Of a DNA stretch of 41,290 nt, positions 113 to 33,727 are shown one piece after another. Made by a program: the position numbers and the translations under genes. Under the pieces are notes generated by a model, which saw only the letters and a list, made by a program, of their open reading frames with translations, ran no database searches and had not been told where the DNA came from. Source of the DNA: Xenococcaceae cyanobacterium MO_167.B27 (GTDB taxonomy: Bacteria; Cyanobacteriota; Cyanobacteriia; Cyanobacteriales; Xenococcaceae); contig JASJCP010000051.1 in the NCBI GenBank assembly GCA_030065935.1, positions 1 through 41,290 on the forward strand. The letters are read 5' to 3'. The stretch's first letter is position 1. Each line of letters begins with the position of its first letter.

Positions 113-1291
113 CTACACAGACATTTTTTCTAAAGACACGATTAGCCCAACCGCGCCTAATCCTCGTTTCAGGATTACTTCACTAGCTACTACATCACGA
201 TTATTCGTGTAACCACAATTATCACAGTGATGAATACGTACATCAAGAGACTTTTTTCCTGTCAAAGTATCGCATCTGGGACAGATTTGCGAGGTGTAAT
301 CTTTATCTACCTTGGCAAAATAGGTATCGGTTTTTTTACATACCCATTGAAGTATATTTACAAAGTTGCCAAAACCAGCGTCGGCAAAATGTTTTCGCAA
401 CATTCCTCGACTCCAGCTTTTGAAGTTTATATCCTCGACAAATATCATTCCTGCTCCTTGACACAATTTATGAGCAGTTTTGAAATGAAAGTCTTTTCTT
501 GTGTCCGTAATTCTTTGATGTAGCCTTGCTATTTTGTGATTAATTTTGGCTCGGTTATTAGAACCTTTTTTCTTGTTTCTTAACTTACGTTGCAGTAATT
601 TAATCTCGCGCTGTAATCTTTTAAGAAACTTGGGTCTAGCTATTAATAACCCTTCACTAGTTGCAGCAAACTTATCCAGTCCTAAATCAATACCTATGGC
701 TTTTCCATGAGGTATTGAATCTGGAATATCCACATCTAGTTGTAACGACAGCATCACAAAATAACCAGATGCTTTTCTGATTACTCTCGCTTGTTTGATT
801 TTACAACCATCTGGTATTGGTCGAGAGTTAATGTATGTCACCCAATCAAGTTTTGGTAATCTAATTTGGTTGTTAGTTATTACCTTTCCTTTGTTTAATT
901 GTGGATATACAAAACTTCTTAATCGATACTTGTTTTTAAATCTCGGAAAACCAAATCCTCGCTTCTTCATATCGACAAAAGCGGTTTCTAATTTTCTCAA
1001 GACCTGTTGTAAAACTTGCGATGGTGCAGATTTTAGGAAATCGTTGTTTTTTTTTGCAGCTACTAAATTCTGCGCTTGATGATAGTAATTAGGGAATGGC
1101 GCATCGGCTGGTATTATATATTCACTTACCCTAGAACAAGAATTAATGCTACAAATTCTAGAATTAAGATAGTCTTTTAACTCTCTCAAGTTATAGTTCC
1201 AAACAGACCTACAGACATCTAAAGTATGTTCTATGTATTCTTTTTGTTCTGGCGTTGGCAGTAACTTATACTCCCAATTCATTACTATCAT
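113..1291 (-). CDS. tnpB: TnpB, RNA-guided nuclease of an IS605-type element
   Basis: A 392-aa protein of normal TnpB length. The RuvC-like centre is visible: the first Asp in GIDLGLDKF (about residue 200), a Glu in VEDINF (about 287) and the last Asp in NNRDVVAS (about 365). A four-Cys zinc ribbon (CPRC...CDNCG) lies between the last two. The N-terminal WEYKLLPT start and the YNLRELKDYL region fit the helix-turn-helix N-terminus of the family. Either ATG 1291 or the second ATG at 1282 (MNWEYK) could be the start. No frameshift is seen, so the nuclease may be active. Related TnpB proteins cut DNA guided by an RNA from the element's right end, which helps retain the element. Confidence 0.9.
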   Translation of the reverse strand: MIVMNWEYKLLPTPEQKEYIEHTLDVCRSVWNYNLRELKDYLNSRICSINSCSRVSEYIIPADAPFPNYYHQAQNLVAAKKNNDFLKSAPSQVLQQVLRKLETAFVDMKKRGFGFPRFKNKYRLRSFVYPQLNKGKVITNNQIRLPKLDWVTYINSRPIPDGCKIKQARVIRKASGYFVMLSLQLDVDIPDSIPHGKAIGIDLGLDKFAATSEGLLIARPKFLKRLQREIKLLQRKLRNKKKGSNNRAKINHKIARLHQRITDTRKDFHFKTAHKLCQGAGMIFVEDINFKSWSRGMLRKHFADAGFGNFVNILQWVCKKTDTYFAKVDKDYTSQICPRCDTLTGKKSLDVRIHHCDNCGYTNNRDVVASEVILKRGLGAVGLIVSLEKMSV

Positions 1292-18925: not shown

Positions 18926-19195
18926 TTATAGTGCGCCTACACTTGCTAGACCCAAGATAGCTCCTACGCCCAGAAGATGACCCAAACTAGTAGTACCTAG
19001 AAGTGCAGGTAAACCCATACCACCAAAAAAAGTTGGAGAAGGTAAAGCAGGTTCAGCACTGATGTTCTTGATTGTGTATTTGCCGAAAGCAATAGCAATA
19101 ATATTGCAGATGATCATTACAATTGCTACTTTGGGACTCCACTCTACGGTAGAGGGAACGGAAGAGGCGACAGCCAATAAAGTAGAATAAGCCAA
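18926..19195 (-). CDS. psaK: Photosystem I subunit PsaK
   Basis: An 89-aa protein with the PsaK layout: a short N-terminus, membrane helix VAIVMIICNIIAIAFGKYTI, a loop with PALPSPTFFGGMGLPALLGT, and a second helix HLLGVGAILGLASVGAL. The length is normal. GGAGA lies about 8 nt before ATG 19195. PsaK sits at the edge of photosystem I, binds chlorophyll and helps couple antenna to the core; many cyanobacteria carry two copies, one light-induced. It is transcribed divergently from the tRNA gene and followed by two hairpins. Confidence 0.95.
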   Translation of the reverse strand: MAYSTLLAVASSVPSTVEWSPKVAIVMIICNIIAIAFGKYTIKNISAEPALPSPTFFGGMGLPALLGTTSLGHLLGVGAILGLASVGAL

Positions 19196-19387
19196 AATTG
19201 ATTTCTCCTGTTATTTTAATGATGCTAAATTGACAATAATTTTATTGTTTCAGGTAAAGCAGATATTATTCTTTGTTGCAATATTTATTAATTAAGTAAA
19301 GTTTTTTATACAAAATTAATTTTTGCCAGTATCTTTAACGATTAAACTCTATGGTGTATTTTAGATCTTGTTATTCAACAATTTTAA

Positions 19388-19726
19388 GGGGCTGTAGCTC
19401 AGCAGGATAGAGCAAGTGCCTCCTGATTTTATCGGGCACCATGAAAGAAATTTCATGAGTGAATGTGGTCAAATTCAAGGAAGCCTAAGTCTGTTAAAGA
19501 TAGGGTAATCTTGAGCCAAGCTCCATTTGCTGTGGTGGAGAAGGTGCAGAGACTGGTTGTAAGGAGCAAACAGCAATAAAGACTGATTTTGAGCAGCACT
19601 TACAACATAACGGCCACCACCTAAAGACTAATAATATTAGTCCAAGGTGAAGGAATAGTCCAGAGAGTGAGGAAACTCACACCAATCTGAAGCACTAGGT
19701 CGCGCGTTCAAATCGCGCCAGTCCCG
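19388..19726 (+). tRNA. tRNA-Arg(CCU), split by a group I intron
   Basis: 5' exon 19388-19424 and 3' exon 19690-19726 join into a 74-nt tRNA. Acceptor GGGGCTG pairs with CAGTCCC, the D stem is GCTC/GAGC, the anticodon stem AGTGC/GCACT with loop CTCCTAA (anticodon CCT), and the T stem GCGCG/CGCGC with loop TTCAAAT. CCA is not encoded. The intron sits directly after the third anticodon base. CCU reads the rare AGG arginine codon. Confidence 0.9.
19425..19689 (+). ncRNA. Group I self-splicing intron in tRNA-Arg(CCU)
   Basis: 265 nt. The P1 helix pairs exon end CCT and intron GAT with ATCGGG, giving the U-G wobble at the 5' splice site. The intron ends in G at the 3' site. Conserved core blocks are visible: GGGTAATCTTGAGCCAAG (P4/P5 region, 19503-19520), AAGGTGCAGAGAC (P6/P7, 19541-19553) and AATAGTCC (P7 3' strand, 19654-19661), plus a GTGAG-GAAA-CTCAC hairpin near the end. 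These match the subgroup IC3 introns found in bacterial tRNA genes. No homing endonuclease is encoded. Confidence 0.88.
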
Positions 19727-19911
19727 TTTTCGTAAAATGTGAGTTCAACAAAGTCAGTAAGGGCTGCAACTATTGCTACTTTCAGTAGATCTAAAAGGTT
19801 ATGGTGGAGACTGGGTCTGTCTGCGCGCAAGTCGCACTTTTCATATTAAGTTGCTGGTGCGCTGACCTCTTTCGCGCGGATTGTTGAAGCCCTACACCCC
19901 ACACCCCCCGG

Positions 19912-20023
19912 GAGGAGACTTAATATATCTAGATATTGAACCCAAAAGAGGAGGACACGGGTGAGCGGGAGCACGGCTTACCGTAAGATGTCCGTATCGG
20001 TTTTGTAATGAAGTCTCCTTCGG
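19912..20023. repeat. Dispersed repeat, copy A (interrupted by hairpin)
   Basis: Its two halves (gaggagacttaatatatcta... and ...gaagtctccttcgg) match, in reverse orientation, the 66-bp sequence at 25534-25599. Between the halves this copy carries about 47 extra bases containing the hairpin 19953-19993. Confidence 0.8.
19953..19993. repeat. Dispersed hairpin element, copy 2
   Basis: 41-bp palindrome with outer arms GGACA/TGTCC and inner arms CGGGTGAGC/GGCTTACCG. Compare copy 1 at 4125-4166. Here it sits inside a longer repeat. Confidence 0.75.
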
Positions 20024-20068
20024 TGCCCTACACCCTACCTTCACCGATAAGTTTGTGATCTACTGACT

Positions 20069-21583
20069 TTATTTTGAAGCAATTGGCATTCTGCCATAAA
20101 GATAAGTGAGATACTTGAGATGTCCACTCAATCCTTCTGATAAAACATCTCCTCGATAACGCCATTCCCAGTTACCTTCTACAGTAGAAGGGGTGTTCAT
20201 TTTGGTATCACCACCATAGCCTAAGATGTCTTGTAGAGGGAAAATAGCAGTATTAGCTACTGAACCCATAGCGAGACGAATTAGACCCCAGTGGATACCT
20301 TCAGGACACAAACAACCTAAATAATCTATAACTTTAGCTTGGTCTTCAGGCGATCGCTCATAAAACCAACCCAAGGTAGTATTATTATCATGAGTCCCTG
20401 TATAAACTACACAGTTATGGTTGACATAGTTAAAAGGTAAAAAGGGATTAGCGCGGTCAGAATCAAAAGCAAAGTGGAGAATTTTCATTCCAGGGAAATC
20501 GAACTTATCTCGCAAGGCTTCTACTTCGGGAGTAATCACCCCTAAATCTTCCGCCACAATGGGTAATTCTCCTAAATCTTCTTTGAGTAGGGTAAAGAAA
20601 GCCTCTCCTGGCGCTTCAATCCATTTTCCTTTCATAGCGGTGGTTTCTCCTTCAGGGACAGCCCAAAATGACTCAAAACCCCGAAAGTGATCGATGCGAA
20701 TAACATCAACATATTCTAGGATGTCTTCAATTCTTTTGATCCACCATTTAAAATCAGTTTTTTCTAATTCTTCCCAGTCATATACAGGATTCCCCCATAA
20801 TTGACCTGTTGCACTGAAATAATCTGGGGGTACACCAGCCATCAATGCTGCTGCGCCAGTTTCTTCATCTAAACAGAAAATATCGGGATGAGACCAGACA
20901 TCTGCACTATCATGAGCCACATAGATCGGAATATCACCAAAAATCTTAATTCCTTTTTCGTTAGTGTATTTTTTTAAGTTTTGCCACTGACGGAAAAACT
21001 CGTATTGAGTAAATTTATGGAAAAATGTTTCATTTTCTAGCTTTGCTGCCCACTTTGCCATTGCTTCTGGCTTACGTGTAGCAATATCTTCATCCCATTG
21101 ATTCCAGCTTTGTCCTTGATGATGCTCCTTTAACGCCATGAACAAACCATAATCATCTATCCAATCAGCATGGCGATCGCAAAACTCTTGAAAAGATTGG
21201 AGTTGTTTGGGGGTCGCTTGGTTTTTAAAGCGATCGCAAGCTTTTTTGAGGAGTGGTATTTTAGTCCCGATAACCAGATCGTAATCAACCTTGTAGTCGA
21301 GATATTCTGGTAACTCAGCTACATCTTCGGGAGTTAATAACTCGTCTTCCAGTAACTTTTCTGGACTAATAAGTAAAGGATTGCCAGCTAAAGCAGAATA
21401 GCATAAGTAGGGAGAATTACCATAACCAGTAGGACCAAGAGGTAAAATTTGCCATACTTGCTGGTCAGCATTGGCAAGAAAGTCAATAAAATCATAAGCA
21501 CCAGTCCCTAAATCACCAATACCAAAAGGACTAGGTAGAGAAGTGGGATGGAGTAAAATACCGCTAACTCTGGAGTCAAACAT
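20069..21583 (-). CDS. malQ: 4-alpha-glucanotransferase (amylomaltase), GH77
   Basis: A 504-aa protein of full GH77 length. The catalytic residues are visible: nucleophile D298 in RIDHFRGF, acid/base E345 in VAEDLG, and D399 in GTHDNNTT; the N-terminal LHPTSLPSPFGIGDLG and GYGNSPY motifs are also present. The enzyme transfers alpha-1,4-glucan segments between maltooligosaccharides in the cytosol and works in glycogen turnover. AAGGAAGAG lies about 7 nt before ATG 21583. It is divergent from the permease gene and converges with the tRNA gene. Confidence 0.95.
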   Translation of the reverse strand: MFDSRVSGILLHPTSLPSPFGIGDLGTGAYDFIDFLANADQQVWQILPLGPTGYGNSPYLCYSALAGNPLLISPEKLLEDELLTPEDVAELPEYLDYKVDYDLVIGTKIPLLKKACDRFKNQATPKQLQSFQEFCDRHADWIDDYGLFMALKEHHQGQSWNQWDEDIATRKPEAMAKWAAKLENETFFHKFTQYEFFRQWQNLKKYTNEKGIKIFGDIPIYVAHDSADVWSHPDIFCLDEETGAAALMAGVPPDYFSATGQLWGNPVYDWEELEKTDFKWWIKRIEDILEYVDVIRIDHFRGFESFWAVPEGETTAMKGKWIEAPGEAFFTLLKEDLGELPIVAEDLGVITPEVEALRDKFDFPGMKILHFAFDSDRANPFLPFNYVNHNCVVYTGTHDNNTTLGWFYERSPEDQAKVIDYLGCLCPEGIHWGLIRLAMGSVANTAIFPLQDILGYGGDTKMNTPSTVEGNWEWRYRGDVLSEGLSGHLKYLTYLYGRMPIASK

Positions 21584-21763: not shown

Positions 21764-24700
21764 ATGGATCTTCAACTGGTTTTTAACGGCATTGCCATCG
21801 GTAGTATCTTAGCTCTAGCAGCGATCGGTTTAACCTTAACTTACGGTATTTTGCGCCTTTCCAATTTTGCCCACGGGGATTTTATGACTTTAGGTGCTTA
21901 TCTAACTTGGTTAGCCAATATCAACGGCGTAAATATCTGGTTAGCAATGATTTTAGGGGCTGCTGGCACGATAATAGGAATGCTAATTGCAGAATTGCTC
22001 CTCTGGAAACCCATGCGCGATCGCCGTGCTAATTCTACAACCCTAATTATTATCTCTATTGGGTTAGCCTTATTTCTCCGTAGTGCTATTTTATTCATCT
22101 GGGGTGGTAGTGTGCGACTCGTTTAGAACAAAAGTACTGTAAAGTACGTAGTTCTAGCCTGGATTAAGGAGACATATGTTAAGGAAAGTTAAGAAATTAA
22201 CAATTTTTAACAAGTCAAATTGAACCATGATAACTAAATACTCTATGAAGGTGAGAAAGCCTGTAATAAGGTAGCTAAATATTAATAAAAGTGTAAATCT
22301 TCAAGTCCTTCTCTCTCGGTGTTGGGAGTAAAAGCGTAACCCCTACTGTAGCGACTGGTCATCAATCGGTAAAGCGGGGTTAAACGGGGCAATATCTGTA
22401 AAGGTTGTTTCGGATATCCCCTAGCAAGAATTCCAAGGATAGGGCGCAACGCTCAAAGCACCTCACCGCCGTAATCCAGAAGTAGCTAAATCAACCCTGA
22501 TAAGCTACAGCCAAAAGGCAATACCGCGCAAGATTGTTATTTACGTACTACCGTAAATAACCAACACCAATCGCGGTCGGTGGATGGGTAATAGTCTTAA
22601 TCATCGTAATTAGTAAATAGCTAAATCAACCCTGTCAAGCTATAGCCAAAATGGCAATACTGCATATGATTGTTATCTAATCTATAAGTAGATAACCAGC
22701 ACTAATCGCAGTCGGTGAACAGACGCATCCTAAAGATTCATATCAACAGAGTATTTGGAACGAGGAAAACCTCTAATAACTCTCTGGAATGGTCGAATAA
22801 TCCAGAGTAATCAACCAAGATGCAACCTCTCTAGAAATGGAGGTTATTAGAGGAAAAGGATTGGGTAAAAAGCTAACGCCTTAACTCGAATTAACGAGTA
22901 TTGCTTTTCTGAAACAAAGGAAAAGAAGGGTAATTCCAAGGATATACGGGGCGTACAAGCTTTTGAGGAGACCTCAAAAGACAGCCCCTCGCCGACGTAC
23001 CCACTGTTTTCAGGATAGTAGTGATTAAGTAGCATTGAATATGTCTAAGACAGATTTAAAAACGGGGCTTATAAAGGGGCGAACTAAATTCGCCCCACAG
23101 CCCCTCCTAAATACTGTGGAATGGAACACAATCAACTGGCGTAAAATCCAAAAAGCTGTGTTCAAGATGCAAAAGAGAATCTACCGAGCCTATGCCAGTG
23201 GTGATGTTAAGAAAGGAAGAAGGCTACAAAAAACCCTCATCAATTCTTATTACAACCGTTTGTTAGCTGTCAGAAAGGTCAGTCAGGATAACCAAGGCAA
23301 GAAGACTGCTGGCGTGGACAAGGTTAAATCCCTTACACCCAAACAACGTCTTCAACTCGCAAACAATTTAAAAATAGGGGATAAATCTCAACCCATCAGA
23401 AGGGTATGGATTCCCAAACCTGGAAGAAAAGAAGAGCGACCCCTGGGTATTCCTGTAATGCGCGATAGGGCAGTACAAGCATTAGTCAAAGCTGCCCTAG
23501 AACCCGAATGGGAGGCACTCTTTGAGGATAACTCCTACGGATTCCGACCAGGAAAGAGCGCACACGATGCTATTGGAGCAATATTTAACCATATCAAGTC
23601 TAAACCAAAATTTGTACTTGATGCCGACATTAGTAAGTGTTTTGACCGCATTAACCATCAAAAACTTTTAGCCAAGTTAAACACTTTTCCTAAAATAAGG
23701 AAACAAATCCGAGCCTGGCTAAAAGCGGATATCTGCGACTTTACCAAACATGAAAGAACTCCAAACCAACAAGGCACACCCCAGGGAGGTGTTATTTCCC
23801 CGCTATTAAGTAACATAGCCTTACACGGAATGGAGAACAGAATAAAACAAGTCAAAGGCGCATCACTTATTCGATATGCTGACGATTTTGTAATCTTCCA
23901 TGAAAACTTGGAAGTATTAAAGCAGTGTCAAAAGATAATCTGTGAATGGTTAACCCAATTTGACTTGGAATTAAAGTCAAGTAAAACTAGGATGGTGCAT
24001 ACCTTAAATGAATTGGATGATAATAAACCAGGTTTTGATTTCCTAGGCTTTAATATCAGACAGTACGAAGTAGGGAAACATCAGTCTGGGAAAAACACCA
24101 AAGGTAAATTACTTGGTTTTAAAACCATCATTAAGCCATCTGATGATAGTGTCAAAAAACACTACAACAAATTATCAGAAACAATCAATCGGTTTAATGC
24201 AGCACCTCAAACAAAGCTCATTAAAGAGTTAAACCCCATCATTAGGGGTTGGTGCAATTATTTTAAAACTGTGTGTAGTAAAGAAATCTTTTCTAAGTTA
24301 GATAATTTAACATATCTAAGAATACGCAGATGGGCTGACAGAAGACATCCTAATAAAGGTAAATATTGGGTATCTGATAAATATTGGAAAACGGTAGGAA
24401 AAGATAACTGGGTATTCGCTACTCAGTATAAAGGGAATAACCACGAACTGATAAAACATCAACAAACAGCCATTCAACGCCATGTCAAAGTAAAAGGTAA
24501 TAAATCACCTTTTGATGGAGATACACTTTACTGGGGTAAAAGGATGTCCAAACATCCAGAAATCAAAAACTCAGTATCCAAACTACTTAAAAAACAGGAT
24601 GGAAAGTGTAATTGGTGTAAACTTCCTTTCAGTGAAGGAGACATAATAGAAATCGACCATGTTACCCCCAGGGCTGCTGGTGGTAATAGTAAAAAAGATA

Positions 24701-25483
24701 ACACACAACTCCTTCACAGGCATTGCCACGACATCAAAACCAAAAGTGACCTACGGGTTATAAAGCGATATAAAGCTGAAAAGGAATGGTCAAAAATTCA
24801 ATTTCAGTTTAACAATTTGAACTGGGGTTGGGTGGATGATATGCCAACCTTACTCAACGGTTTGGGTATTCATAAAGAACCTGATAGCAGAGGAGCGCAG
24901 TGAGGTGAAAGTCTCATGCTGCGTTCTGAAGACGAGTCGTCTCGGTGACGAGATGGCTTAGTTTAACAATCAATCTTATGACCTTCCTGTGGTACAAGCG
25001 ATTCAAGTAGGAGATTTAAGAATTGCTTATTATCGAGTAGTGGGAATTGTTTTAGCGGTAATTGCCATCACTGCGCTACATTTTCTCTTACAAAAAACCA
25101 AAGTGGGTAAAGCTATGCGAGCCGTAGCAGATAATATAGACCTAGCTAGAGTATCAGGGATTAATGTAGAACGAGTTGTACTGTGGACTTGGATTATTAC
25201 AGGAATTTTAACCGCCCTAGCAGGGGGAATTTATGGCTTAATTACCGCAGTAAGACCTAATATGGGTTGGTTTCTGATTTTACCCATGTTTGCATCAGTA
25301 ATTTTAGGAGGAATTGGTAATGTTTATGGTGCGATCGCTGGAGCGTTAATTATTGGTGTCGCCCAAGAGTTGAGTACTAGTATTCCGTTTTTGGGTTCAG
25401 AATATAAGTTGGGAGTAGCTTTATTTATTATGGTGTTGATTCTGTTTATCCGTCCTCAAGGCTTGTTTAAAGGTACTTCTTAA
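21764..25483 (+). CDS. livH: LivH/NatD-type amino-acid ABC permease, split by a group II intron
   Basis: Two exons, 21764-22111 (116 codons) and 24968-25483 (171 codons plus stop), join exactly in frame into a 287-aa protein with the junction FIWGGS/NQSYDLPVVQAI, the sequence expected in this family at that place. The N-terminus (LVFNGIAIGSILALAAIGLTLTYGILRLSNFAHGDF) is the LivH hallmark; AVADNIDLARVSGINVERV and ASVILGGIGNVYGAIAGAL are the conserved cytoplasmic and membrane motifs. LivH-type proteins form the channel of high-affinity branched-chain or neutral amino-acid importers with LivM, ATPases and a binding protein; those partners are not in the window. Without splicing, translation ends three codons into the intron, so the transporter depends on intron removal. 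Confidence 0.85.
22483..22717 (+). repeat. Duplicated EBS1-bearing segment inside the group II intron
   Basis: 22483-22583 and 22618-22717 are about 100-nt direct copies (tagctaaatcaaccctg... to ...gtcggtg), roughly three-quarters identical. Each contains a hairpin at the same place. In copy 1 (22536-22561) the loop region holds the EBS1 that matches the exon. In copy 2 (GTTATCTA/TAGATAAC, 22672-22696) the loop reads ATCTATAAG and does not match the exon. Confidence 0.8.
23041..24903 (+). CDS. ltrA: Group II intron reverse transcriptase/maturase with HNH endonuclease
   Basis: 620 aa from ATG 23041; a TTG two codons upstream is less likely. The reverse transcriptase blocks are intact: KPGRKEERPLGIPVMRDRAVQ, SYGFRPGKSAHDAI, DADISKCFDRI, QGTPQGGVISPLL and RYADDFV (the catalytic YADD near residue 279), followed by the thumb/maturase X domain (GFDFLGFNIRQY, LIKELNPIIRGWCNYF). 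The C-terminal HNH domain has CNWC (about 523-526), EIDHVTPRAAGG and HRHCHD. Such proteins help the intron RNA splice, cut the bottom strand of the target DNA and copy the intron in. No frameshift is seen, so mobility is possible. Confidence 0.95.
   Translation: MSKTDLKTGLIKGRTKFAPQPLLNTVEWNTINWRKIQKAVFKMQKRIYRAYASGDVKKGRRLQKTLINSYYNRLLAVRKVSQDNQGKKTAGVDKVKSLTPKQRLQLANNLKIGDKSQPIRRVWIPKPGRKEERPLGIPVMRDRAVQALVKAALEPEWEALFEDNSYGFRPGKSAHDAIGAIFNHIKSKPKFVLDADISKCFDRINHQKLLAKLNTFPKIRKQIRAWLKADICDFTKHERTPNQQGTPQGGVISPLLSNIALHGMENRIKQVKGASLIRYADDFVIFHENLEVLKQCQKIICEWLTQFDLELKSSKTRMVHTLNELDDNKPGFDFLGFNIRQYEVGKHQSGKNTKGKLLGFKTIIKPSDDSVKKHYNKLSETINRFNAAPQTKLIKELNPIIRGWCNYFKTVCSKEIFSKLDNLTYLRIRRWADRRHPNKGKYWVSDKYWKTVGKDNWVFATQYKGNNHELIKHQQTAIQRHVKVKGNKSPFDGDTLYWGKRMSKHPEIKNSVSKLLKKQDGKCNWCKLPFSEGDIIEIDHVTPRAAGGNSKKDNTQLLHRHCHDIKTKSDLRVIKRYKAEKEWSKIQFQFNNLNWGWVDDMPTLLNGLGIHKEPDSRGAQ
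24893..24967 (+). ncRNA. Group II intron domains V and VI
   Basis: Domain V (24893-24926) is a hairpin GAGCGCAG/CTGCGTTC with an AGC triad and a GAAA tetraloop. Domain VI (about 24930-24967, stem CGAG/CTCG) leads to the 3' splice site TTTAAC. Confidence 0.85.
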
Positions 25484-32016: not shown

Positions 32017-33294
32017 CTATATATCGCTCATCAAATGTATAGCATTACCAGAAATGGTAAAGGCAGTTGCTCTCATTGCACGAATCATAATATTTCGTGC
32101 GCCGTTTAAATCACGTCCAGATTGATAATCACAATTAGGGCATTTGAAATATTTTGACGAACCTAATTTTTCGTGAATAGTTCCACATTCAGGGCAAGTT
32201 TTAGAAGTATAAGATTCATTACATCTAATCACTAAGCAATTTTTCCTGTTTGCCATTTGAGTTAAATGTTGAGCAAATTTATAATGAGAAAAAGTCAGCA
32301 TATTTCTTGCAGTCTTAGCTTTTATTTTTCTTGTTTGCTTCAATACCATTTGGCTTGATTCAAATGTTGGCAAGAAAATTACTTTGTAGTTATAAACTAA
32401 AAAAGATGCTACTTTATTGTGTAAATCCTTAATTAAGTTGCGGATTTTTTCTCTAGTTCTTGTCGCTGCCTGACGTTGTTTATATCTTTGACGTTTCGAT
32501 TTTGACAGAGATATTTTACTCATTAGTCGGTCAAGATGCGAACATAATCGATTGATTCGTCCGATATCTTTCTTGCCAACTTCTAAAACATTTTCTCCGT
32601 CGTATCCCGTCAAAAACGTTCTAATTCCAGGGTCTAAAGCAATTACTCTTTCTCGATTTGTTGGAGCAATTTCAATATATTCGGGAAAGCAACCATACCA
32701 TTTCCCTTTTTGATAAACCAACTGAGTACCATAGGCGCATTCAACTGGAATTACTTGTTTTGATTTAAATTGTAGATTTTTAGTGGTTCTTTGATACCAA
32801 GTCCCATTTTTAAAGTTTCCAACTTTGAATTTAATTACTTGAGAATAAGCCCGACAAGATTTGAAGTTACCATCACCACCATTCTTTCTGGCTTGGTTGT
32901 AAGCATCTACTGCATCCGATACAGCCTCTTGTAGTTGATGACCTGGAAGTTGTTTGACCCATTCTGGGCGTTCTGCGGACCTGGCTCGCGACTGTAAAGT
33001 GTAGGCACTATCAAAGTTTCCTGCTTTTAACTGAGCCATTGTCCAATTGTATATCCAACGGTAAGCTGCCAACCATTGTTTCCAAATACGATGTAAGTCT
33101 TTACACGGATACACCCTGATTTTCTTGACACTGTTTGGTGTCAACTTTTTCGTCTGGTGGCGAGGTTTTTTCTTGTATGTTTTTTTCGACTTGGGTTCGA
33201 TATTTTCCCAATCCGTATAGCCTACTAGAGAAGCAATGTAAGATGGAGAGTATATCCTCAACGAGTTCTTGCTCTGGAGAGAGTTTGCGTTCAT
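32017..33294 (-). CDS. tnpB: TnpB of the IS607 element
   Basis: 425 aa if started at ATG 33294 (MNANSLQSKNSLRIYSP). The frame is open further upstream to 33720, but that part lies within tnpA and reads as out-of-frame recombinase sequence. RuvC residues are present: D in VIALDPGIRTF, E in IFLPTFESSQM and D in SGRDLNGARNI, plus a zinc ribbon CPECG...CPNC. It overlaps the tnpA 3' end by about 190 nt, usual for IS607. It appears intact. It differs clearly from the TnpB at the left end of the window. Confidence 0.85.
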   Translation of the reverse strand: MNANSLQSKNSLRIYSPSYIASLVGYTDWENIEPKSKKTYKKKPRHQTKKLTPNSVKKIRVYPCKDLHRIWKQWLAAYRWIYNWTMAQLKAGNFDSAYTLQSRARSAERPEWVKQLPGHQLQEAVSDAVDAYNQARKNGGDGNFKSCRAYSQVIKFKVGNFKNGTWYQRTTKNLQFKSKQVIPVECAYGTQLVYQKGKWYGCFPEYIEIAPTNRERVIALDPGIRTFLTGYDGENVLEVGKKDIGRINRLCSHLDRLMSKISLSKSKRQRYKQRQAATRTREKIRNLIKDLHNKVASFLVYNYKVIFLPTFESSQMVLKQTRKIKAKTARNMLTFSHYKFAQHLTQMANRKNCLVIRCNESYTSKTCPECGTIHEKLGSSKYFKCPNCDYQSGRDLNGARNIMIRAMRATAFTISGNAIHLMSDI

Positions 33295-33727
33295 TGAGAA
33301 CCACGAGTTGGCATTCACCTTGTTGGCACAACCATTCAATAAGGGGAAATCCGAATCTAACGAGTCGGTCGCTATAGGCGACGACAAGCATTGAGATATC
33401 GCCAAAGTATATTCGTTCCAGTATAGAGAGCCGTTTTCGCCGTTTAAAATTGAGTCCGCTTCCAATCTCTTTAACCAATTCTCCTTTTGGATATTTTGAT
33501 TGTAAAAACTCAATTTGTCGCGATAAGTCATCTTTTTGGGAATTGGTAGAGACTCTTGCATACAGCACAACGGGCTTTTCTGTCTCTTCGTACTCTTCGA
33601 TGCAGAACCTTCTTTGACCTCCTGGAGTTCTAATTGACTTAATTTTCCCTTCTTTGTCCCACCGTCTAAGAGTGCTGATGGCAACTCCAAGGCGTTGGGA
33701 GGCTTCTCTGGGCGTAACATATTTCAC
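33101..33727 (-). CDS. tnpA: IS607 TnpA serine recombinase
   Basis: 208 aa from GTG 33727 (MKYVTPREASQRLGVAISTLRRWDKEGKI), a MerR-like helix-turn-helix with the GGQRRF wing. The recombinase domain follows: YARVSTNSQKDDLSRQ with the nucleophile Ser, and YSDRLVRFGF. The C-terminus continues past the catalytic domain in the overlap with tnpB. IS607 TnpA makes circular intermediates and integrates by serine recombination. It appears intact. Confidence 0.9.
   Translation of the reverse strand: MKYVTPREASQRLGVAISTLRRWDKEGKIKSIRTPGGQRRFCIEEYEETEKPVVLYARVSTNSQKDDLSRQIEFLQSKYPKGELVKEIGSGLNFKRRKRLSILERIYFGDISMLVVAYSDRLVRFGFPLIEWLCQQGECQLVVLNERKLSPEQELVEDILSILHCFSSRLYGLGKYRTQVEKNIQEKTSPPDEKVDTKQCQENQGVSV

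Follow-up and report, generated by a model that had tools for sequence, protein, structure and literature searches.

A group IIB-type intron in a permease gene carries two separately coded copies of the exon-reading unit of domain I

The target of a group II intron can be changed by rewriting EBS1, EBS2 and EBS3, as is done in targetrons, which have one programmable set by design. The intron described here, found in a stretch of 41,290 bases (the whole of the DNA analysed, called the window below), naturally carries two such sets. One EBS1/2/3 set per intron is also what is described in the available part of the work on TeI3 and TeI4 of Thermosynechococcus elongatus (PMC2882425), cyanobacterial families that have diverged in EBS1, EBS2 and EBS3 and hence in their targets. 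Likewise, RmInt1, a IIB intron, has one exon-reading unit in the accessible sections of its description (PMC3123198), while the window intron has two in tandem; the IBS2 span and the place of EBS3 given for RmInt1 agree with the registers found here. The nearest known relative in spirit is C.te.I1 of Clostridium tetani, likewise a bacterial group II system in which a repeated part sets exon choice. According to the portion of that paper at hand (PMC3919590), domains 5 and 6 are repeated along the gene and give rise to alternative 3' splice sites. Unlike C.te.I1, the window has one domain 5/6, and what is repeated is the exon-reading unit of domain I, inside the intron. Alternative splicing of the C.te.I1 kind, which would call for several downstream copies of domains 5 and 6, was considered and set aside, as RF00029 has a single match at gathering score in all 41,290 bases. 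Titles and the beginnings of abstracts in the open-access literature yielded no group II intron with two exon-reading units, subscription journals being mostly uncovered, and the term 'duplicat' does not occur in the main text, as far as it was accessible, of the review 'Evolution of group II introns' (PMC4424553).

Joining the two exons that flank the intron (Table 1) restores an uninterrupted permease reading frame of 287 aa, whose top NCBIfam matches are UrtB and LivH, all under their cut-offs. The splicing-related evidence for the window intron is limited to this restored frame. The typical group II ends, GUGYG and AY, are present (GTGCGAC at 22112, TTTAAC ending at 24967), and the 3' ends of 25 relatives, placed via Rfam matches, read TTTAAC in 24 cases and TTTAAT in one. 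The RF00029 match in the window is printed to 24979, which is 12 nt beyond the intron end. The intron-encoded protein clears TIGR04416 (338.6 bits, cut-off 300), and membership of the CL2 (cyanobacterial) maturase class would fit a cyanobacterial host, going by the part of PMC4424553 available, although no tree with reference CL2 proteins was made. The defining IIB pairings (EBS1-IBS1, EBS2-IBS2 and a single-base EBS3-IBS3 in the coordination loop) are satisfied at 11.5 of 12 in the window, while the usual IIB layout with a single exon-reading unit in domain I is violated. The element is a group IIB-type mobile intron, its splicing and retrohoming being inferred in the absence of splicing or mobility data. 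Between the 5' ribozyme part and the ORF lies a stretch of about 46 bases (22946-22991, + strand) that recurs widely in the window's genome and in related ones at 81-100% identity, and is probably a small dispersed hairpin element located in the intron. Elsewhere, the window holds a group I intron (19412-19682, + strand; RF00028, 84.2 bits), around which no tRNA was found by ARAGORN (19000-20100 searched). The ORFs at 32017-33727 (- strand) look by eye like a serine-recombinase/TnpB pair, which we take to be IS607-like, and the ORF at 113-1291 (- strand), also judged by eye, is presumably another TnpB.

Table 1. Coordinates of the intron, its exons and its two modules in the window
Feature	Position	Strand	Remarks
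5' exon	21764-22111	+	first part of LivH/UrtB-like permease gene, 116 codons; PF02653 match
IBS2	22099-22103	+	CTGGG, exon -13 to -9; module-1 EBS2 pairs 5/5, one G-U
IBS1	22106-22111	+	GGTAGT, exon -6 to -1; module-1 EBS1 pairs 6/6
Group II intron	22112-24967	+	GTGCGAC ... GGCTTAGTTTAAC; 5' motif and 3' end read from sequence
Module 1 (matches present exons)	22466-22585	+	ID(iv)-like helix, everything distal, and EBS3
Module 1 closing helix, 5' strand	22466-22471	+	pairs with 22578-22583; from fold; corresponding helix shows covariation, measured on modules not matching their exon
Module 1 EBS2	22475-22479	+	TCCAG
Module 1 EBS1	22547-22552	+	ACTACC
Module 1 EBS3	22585	+	T, pairs with A at 24968
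Module 2 (not matching present exons)	22601-22720	+	from repeat, register and fold
Module 2 closing helix, 5' strand	22601-22606	+	pairs with 22713-22718; from fold and covariation
Module 2 EBS2-like	22610-22614	+	TTAGT; placed by register; 1.5/5 with exon; hypervariable among five close introns
Module 2 EBS1-like	22682-22687	+	CTATAA inside loop ATCTATAAG (22680-22688); placed by register; hypervariable among five close introns
Module 2 EBS3-like	22720	+	C; placed by register; no pairing with A+1
Intron-encoded protein, 622 aa	23035-24903	+	reverse transcriptase, maturase, HNH; Pfam RVT_N, RVT_1, GIIM, HNH
Domains 5 and 6	24891-24967	+	RF00029, 52.3 bits against gathering 40
3' exon	24968-25483	+	IBS3 is A, its first base (24968)

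The sequence-only reading had described about 100 nt of the intron RNA as duplicated in tandem, each copy with an EBS1-like hairpin. The tandem repeat is real and is longer than that. One direct repeat (22470-22516/22605-22651) is 83% identical with a start-to-start spacing of 135, a second (22513-22543/22649-22679) is 81% identical with a spacing of 136, and the modules measure about 120 nt each, with a period of 135. The copies hold EBS2 and EBS3 too, not EBS1 alone. When 22466-22735 is folded, two distinct modules of the same layout result (-73.6 kcal/mol, z -5.82, equalled by none of 200 shuffles); in each, a closing helix of six base pairs is combined with a linker, a pair of small hairpins and a long stem capped by a variable loop. 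Rfam models run against 22000-23100 found no group II domain-I family even at E values up to 10, only three weak snoRNA-like matches far under their gathering scores, and domain I was therefore interpreted via folding, covariation and the registers of RmInt1. The helix name ID(iv) is accordingly an inference by analogy, drawn from where EBS3 lies with respect to the helix in the part of the RmInt1 paper available (PMC3123198). For EBS2 the register, taken from comparison of exons and modules in relatives, sets five linker bases against exon positions -13 to -9; for EBS1, six loop bases, at one of two neighbouring offsets, face -6 to -1; and for EBS3, one base past the closing helix, after a one-nucleotide gap, faces +1 of the 3' exon.

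In these registers, all 12 guide positions of module 1 in the window (5 + 6 + 1) find a partner in the present exons, one of them by G-U, and the module scores 11.5, while mismatched module-exon combinations score 4.6 ± 1.4. ACTACC exactly complements the last six bases of the 5' exon, as had been claimed, a match that has p = 0.006 when module 1 is taken alone. The second loop, ATCTATAAG, was said not to match, and indeed reaches 3.5 of 6 in the EBS1 register; nor does any six-base window of the module-2 hairpin fit the exon better than chance (p = 0.17). Module 2 keeps the fold of module 1 but has an unrelated code, and only one of the two modules fits the present exon, in agreement with the original description. 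The predicted module-2 target is ACTAANNTTATAG^G. A search of the window's genome for sites of the second code, which had been proposed as a check, gave 3 exact sites against 1 for a control pattern; this is chance level and uninformative.

The module profile was searched in 100 sources (the window, 80 genome stretches picked from matches, and 19 of 23 further loci). Two modules were found at 23 places, at one of which the second copy is split by an insert; two of the further loci coincide with two of these places. One extra two-module intron from the family of G336 brings the total to 24 places in 11 genomes, while the families of G049 and G260 gave no new two-module place, and plasmids only one partial match. 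Genomes with some DNA match amount to 15 of 27 in the family at E 1e-15 and, at E 1e-12, to at least 31 of 388 drawn for the order and at least 7 of 388 drawn for the class. The order and class counts are lower bounds, as only two candidates per genome were scored, and they include the window's own genome; many of the matches behind all of these genome counts are short matches to other group II introns. With L111 (no exon sequence) and L130 (a copy of L129) left out, 22 two-module introns were available for comparison with their exons. Three sets of candidates were excluded: L113/L039, truncated, with the end of one module followed by a complete one; L122-L124, with one module split by an insert; and L172, with two weak partial matches 2 kb apart.

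The second copy is common to most of the close relatives examined. Comparison with related introns, as had been advised, also turned up single-copy relatives of the usual one-unit form. L104 is without copy 1, of which a stub is left, and its retained copy, which by eye aligns with module 2, reads the exon at 12 of 12. L120 is without copy 2 (again a stub is left, judged by eye), and its single module scores 8 of 12, with EBS2 at 5/5. Other single-module scores are 11 of 12 in both L134 and L156 and 9.5 in L122, together with 8.5 in each of L109 and L137, which were scored without a known +1 base. In outgroup introns the unit is single and EBS2 occupies the equivalent linker; among 26 inspected, 22 were scorable, and 10 of these show 5/5 pairing (two of them one base further upstream), the remaining scored ones reaching 1 to 4.5. 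The outgroup check took the best of several possible linkers, had no permutation control and included some near-identical copies. That two such modules lie outside standard group II architecture, as first supposed, is supported by the one-unit outgroups and by the relatives with stubs. The idea would have been refuted had the second copy been a standard subdomain present in all close relatives, which the outgroups, L104 and L120 show it is not.

Further sequence differences were seen in and near the modules. An insert of about 60 bases beginning GGCACGCGACGCGG lies in the first hairpin of a module in L122, L123, L124 and L127 (two genomes), and in L127 it is placed in the idle module 2. Although only distantly related, L103 and L105 (also labelled L003 and L022) share a closely similar addition of about 32 bases, GAGCGTCCC...GAGAAGTT, at one and the same position of the alignment, within domain I and upstream of the modules. 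In L114 a module is interrupted in the EBS1 stem-loop by the apparent start of another intron, GTGCGACTCGT, which looks like a nested insertion or a rearrangement.

The best-fitting module is module 1 in 16 of the 22 introns and module 2 in 6, five of them strongly. Module-1 scores are 12 of 12 in L101, L102, L103, L110, L112, L115, L126, L128 and L129, 11.5 in the window, L105, L108 and L136, 10 in L127, and 9 in L131 and L140; module-2 scores are 12 in L159, 11.5 in L160, 11 in L107, 11 in L183 (12 once the 3' exon is read), 10.5 in L135 and 8.5 in L116. L116, L131 and L140 are weak, with no convincing module. Counting G-U pairs, the best module is paired at 104/110 EBS2, 130/132 EBS1 and 19/22 EBS3 positions (253/264 in total; EBS3 is unpaired in L135, L116 and L131), compared with 53/110, 64/132 and 7/22 (124/264) for the other module, and all 12 positions are paired by the best module in 16 introns and by the other in none. 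Because the best module is chosen by score, permutation of exons is the fair test. A module scoring at least 10 of 12 occurs in 19 of 22 introns, whereas 20,000 permutations gave 0.9 such introns on average and never more than 6; for module 2 alone the count is 5 of 22, where the permutations averaged 0.27 and did not exceed 3. On its own exon the other module averages 4.61, and mismatched combinations average 4.58 (sd 1.43, n = 924).

In all six introns that fit by module 2, EBS1 pairs at 6/6 (G-U included), EBS2 at 5/5 in L135, L159, L160 and L183 and at 4/5 in L107 and L116, and EBS3 in four (L107, L159, L160, L183), not in L135 or L116. These predicted pairings show EBS1 and EBS2 switching allegiance together, one module per intron serving as a unit. 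Two cases are ambiguous: the idle module 1 of L160 also fits the exon at EBS2 (4.5/5), and both modules of L183 bear a fitting EBS3 base. G006 and G026 each have one module-1 user and one module-2 user (L108/L107 and L136/L135, respectively), and the three introns of G336, at three different sites, carry the fitting code in module 2 every time. A role of the idle module as a helper guide for the reading module is unsupported, its match to its own exon being at background over the three registers together. The idle code as a memory of another known site fared no better, since only 1 of the 924 mismatched combinations (L136 module 2 with the L160 exon, at 10/12) reaches 10 of 12, no more than this number of trials would give. 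Within G336, the idle module-1 EBS1 loop of L159 contains, by eye, TAGTTC, the exact complement of IBS1 of L160; the joint score of 9/12 is compatible with chance among 924 comparisons.

A second, non-matching loop could be a relic of an earlier target, as was originally suggested. A mere decaying relic is disfavoured, because some relatives use copy 2 and because the non-matching copies show compensatory changes. In 18 of the 22 non-matching modules (L105, L115, L127 and L131 were not aligned), 90.8% of cells are paired, both sides have changed in 24 of 32 pairs, and doubly changed cells number 107, where shuffles give 36.6 ± 5.2; once the partner is slid by 1-3 columns, only 24-40% remain paired. 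Further pair types show no excess in these modules (44, against 43.0 in shuffles), and the structure was read from one of the tested sequences, which is somewhat in its favour. The weakest helix is the EBS1 stem (72% paired), probably due in part to misaligned loops. The compensatory base changes show that the predicted fold of the idle modules is conserved, as far as alignment of sequences can establish a fold.

The scaffold of the idle module diverges by 5-27% over 21 pairs of introns. When five close introns are compared in six-base windows, variability is highest in a set that includes EBS2 and EBS1 of both modules. The set also takes in 22186, 22348-22369, 22393 and 22834-22840, and at some of these latter places sequence has been replaced or inserted in L103 or L102. 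Idle guide bases differ at 51 of 84 positions, compared with 353 of 1155 four-fold sites of the maturase gene (seven pairs pooled; Mantel-Haenszel odds ratio 3.4, p = 3e-8). The seven pairs were chosen by hand out of the 21, and one EBS1 offset was used for all, though some modules use the neighbouring one. Individually, WIN-L101 (WIN being the window intron), L102-L103, L128-L129 and L110-L115 are significant, while L108-L136, L159-L160 and L107-L135 are not, the last showing no excess. Copy-to-copy exchange could add to this divergence. Why idle codes should change so fast even where a clade consistently reads with the other module is only partly accounted for.

Module use was placed on a maturase tree (33 rows; L112, L116 and L125, with under 250 residues, and L169, without a match, were left out) and on a tree of the RNA scaffold (35 rows), L116 being absent from both. 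In the maturase tree, the module-2 users L107 and L135 are sister to the module-1 users L128 and L129 (98/93), and a second set of module-2 users, L159, L160 and L183, is sister to L108, L136, L126 and L127 (84/88). The first grouping is supported by the RNA tree (84/98), in which the second is unresolved. Since module-2 users form two separate maturase clades, the reading module changed at least twice on the maturase tree, module 1 being taken as the common state. Members with known exons share one module per maturase clade (module 1 in 4 of 4 from the window's genome, module 2 in 3 of 3 from G336), so that changes of reader are rare; the introns examined include no two near-identical ones of which one sits at a module-1 site and the other at a module-2 site. 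Single-module introns are nested, L155, L156, L109 and L122 together in both trees, and copies have therefore been lost more than once. L104 stands beside L140 in the maturase tree and beside L110, L111 and L115 in the RNA tree, and the RNA of L120 groups with the single-module clade whereas its maturase places it outside the group. Given these disagreements, the RNA and the maturase of an intron have not always had a common history, and recombination between the two is possible for L120, L104 and L140. Modules 1 and 2 of the same intron have a mean identity of 0.745 (21 introns; 0.92 in L103), compared with 0.685 for module 1 between clades (189 comparisons). This similarity suggests putative sequence exchange between the heads, though the figures do not distinguish exchange from separate duplications, which are not excluded.

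The explanation we consider best, and hold with fairly high confidence, is a two-headed IIB intron, in which the exon-reading unit of domain I has been duplicated, one head reads, and the idle head is maintained as an alternative. Each head has its own EBS1/EBS2/EBS3 code, and a single module, acting as a whole, would do the reading in any one intron. The permease exons of the window would be read by module 1 while module 2 is idle, and in two other lineages the roles would be reversed. As each head would be held by its own helix adjoining the coordination loop, either one could bring its EBS1, EBS2 and EBS3 to bear on the exons. The idle head would be free to vary while splicing remains safe, and could become the reader after a move; most likely it is an alternative able to take over when a new site is reached, with splicing at the former site left intact. 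Docking of either module in the same active site, and participation of the idle module in retargeting, are inferred, and a wider choice of targets by a single intron is not shown. More speculative, and untested, is a bispecific RNA that could fold with either head docked, one head serving to splice it from its present site and the other to retrotranspose it into a different family of sites; exchange between the heads would allow target codes to be stored and swapped, like a silent cassette. This we regard as rather doubtful.

The alternative that survives best, though we think it unlikely, is that the idle module is a spacer or a slowly decaying leftover, a copy having once replaced the original in the module-2 lineages without there ever being two working heads. 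It would agree with the use of one module per clade, with the existence of single-module relatives, some of which pair well (L104 at 12, L134 and L156 at 11 of 12), and with the chance-level count of module-2 sites in the window's genome. It does not sit well with helices kept by compensatory changes in non-matching modules (18 of 22 examined), with a scaffold diverging by 5-27% (21 pairs) while guide bases exceed four-fold divergence (seven pooled pairs), or with the retention of two modules at 24 places in 11 genomes. We give still less credence to a non-exon partner, such as another RNA or DNA, or regulation, that would read the idle module and drive its fast change. The rapid change of idle guide bases within clades using the other module is what such a partner might produce, but none was found in what was covered, namely the three exon registers and, for the window's genome, a single exact pattern, and the peaks of variability coincide with the EBS2 and EBS1 registers. 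It is most improbable that the second copy is an ordinary domain-I subdomain mistaken for a duplicate, even though it is present in most close relatives examined: the repeats are 80-83% identical, the unit occurs once in outgroup introns, where EBS2 falls in the equivalent linker (10 of 22 scored), each of two relatives lacks a different copy and retains a stub of it, and in five introns the exons are matched by module 2 with scores of 10.5-12 of 12. An assembly or duplication artefact, in favour of which nothing was counted, is scarcely conceivable with diverged copies at 24 places in 11 genomes.

The two-headed intron bears on a standing problem, namely how a group II intron can change its target without losing splicing at its current site, which is difficult because one set of guide bases must serve both the current and the new site. 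A duplicated and independently coded reading head would be a natural answer. The system would test whether the exon-docking part of a ribozyme is a swappable module, and it may offer a natural blueprint for gene-targeting introns with two specificities.
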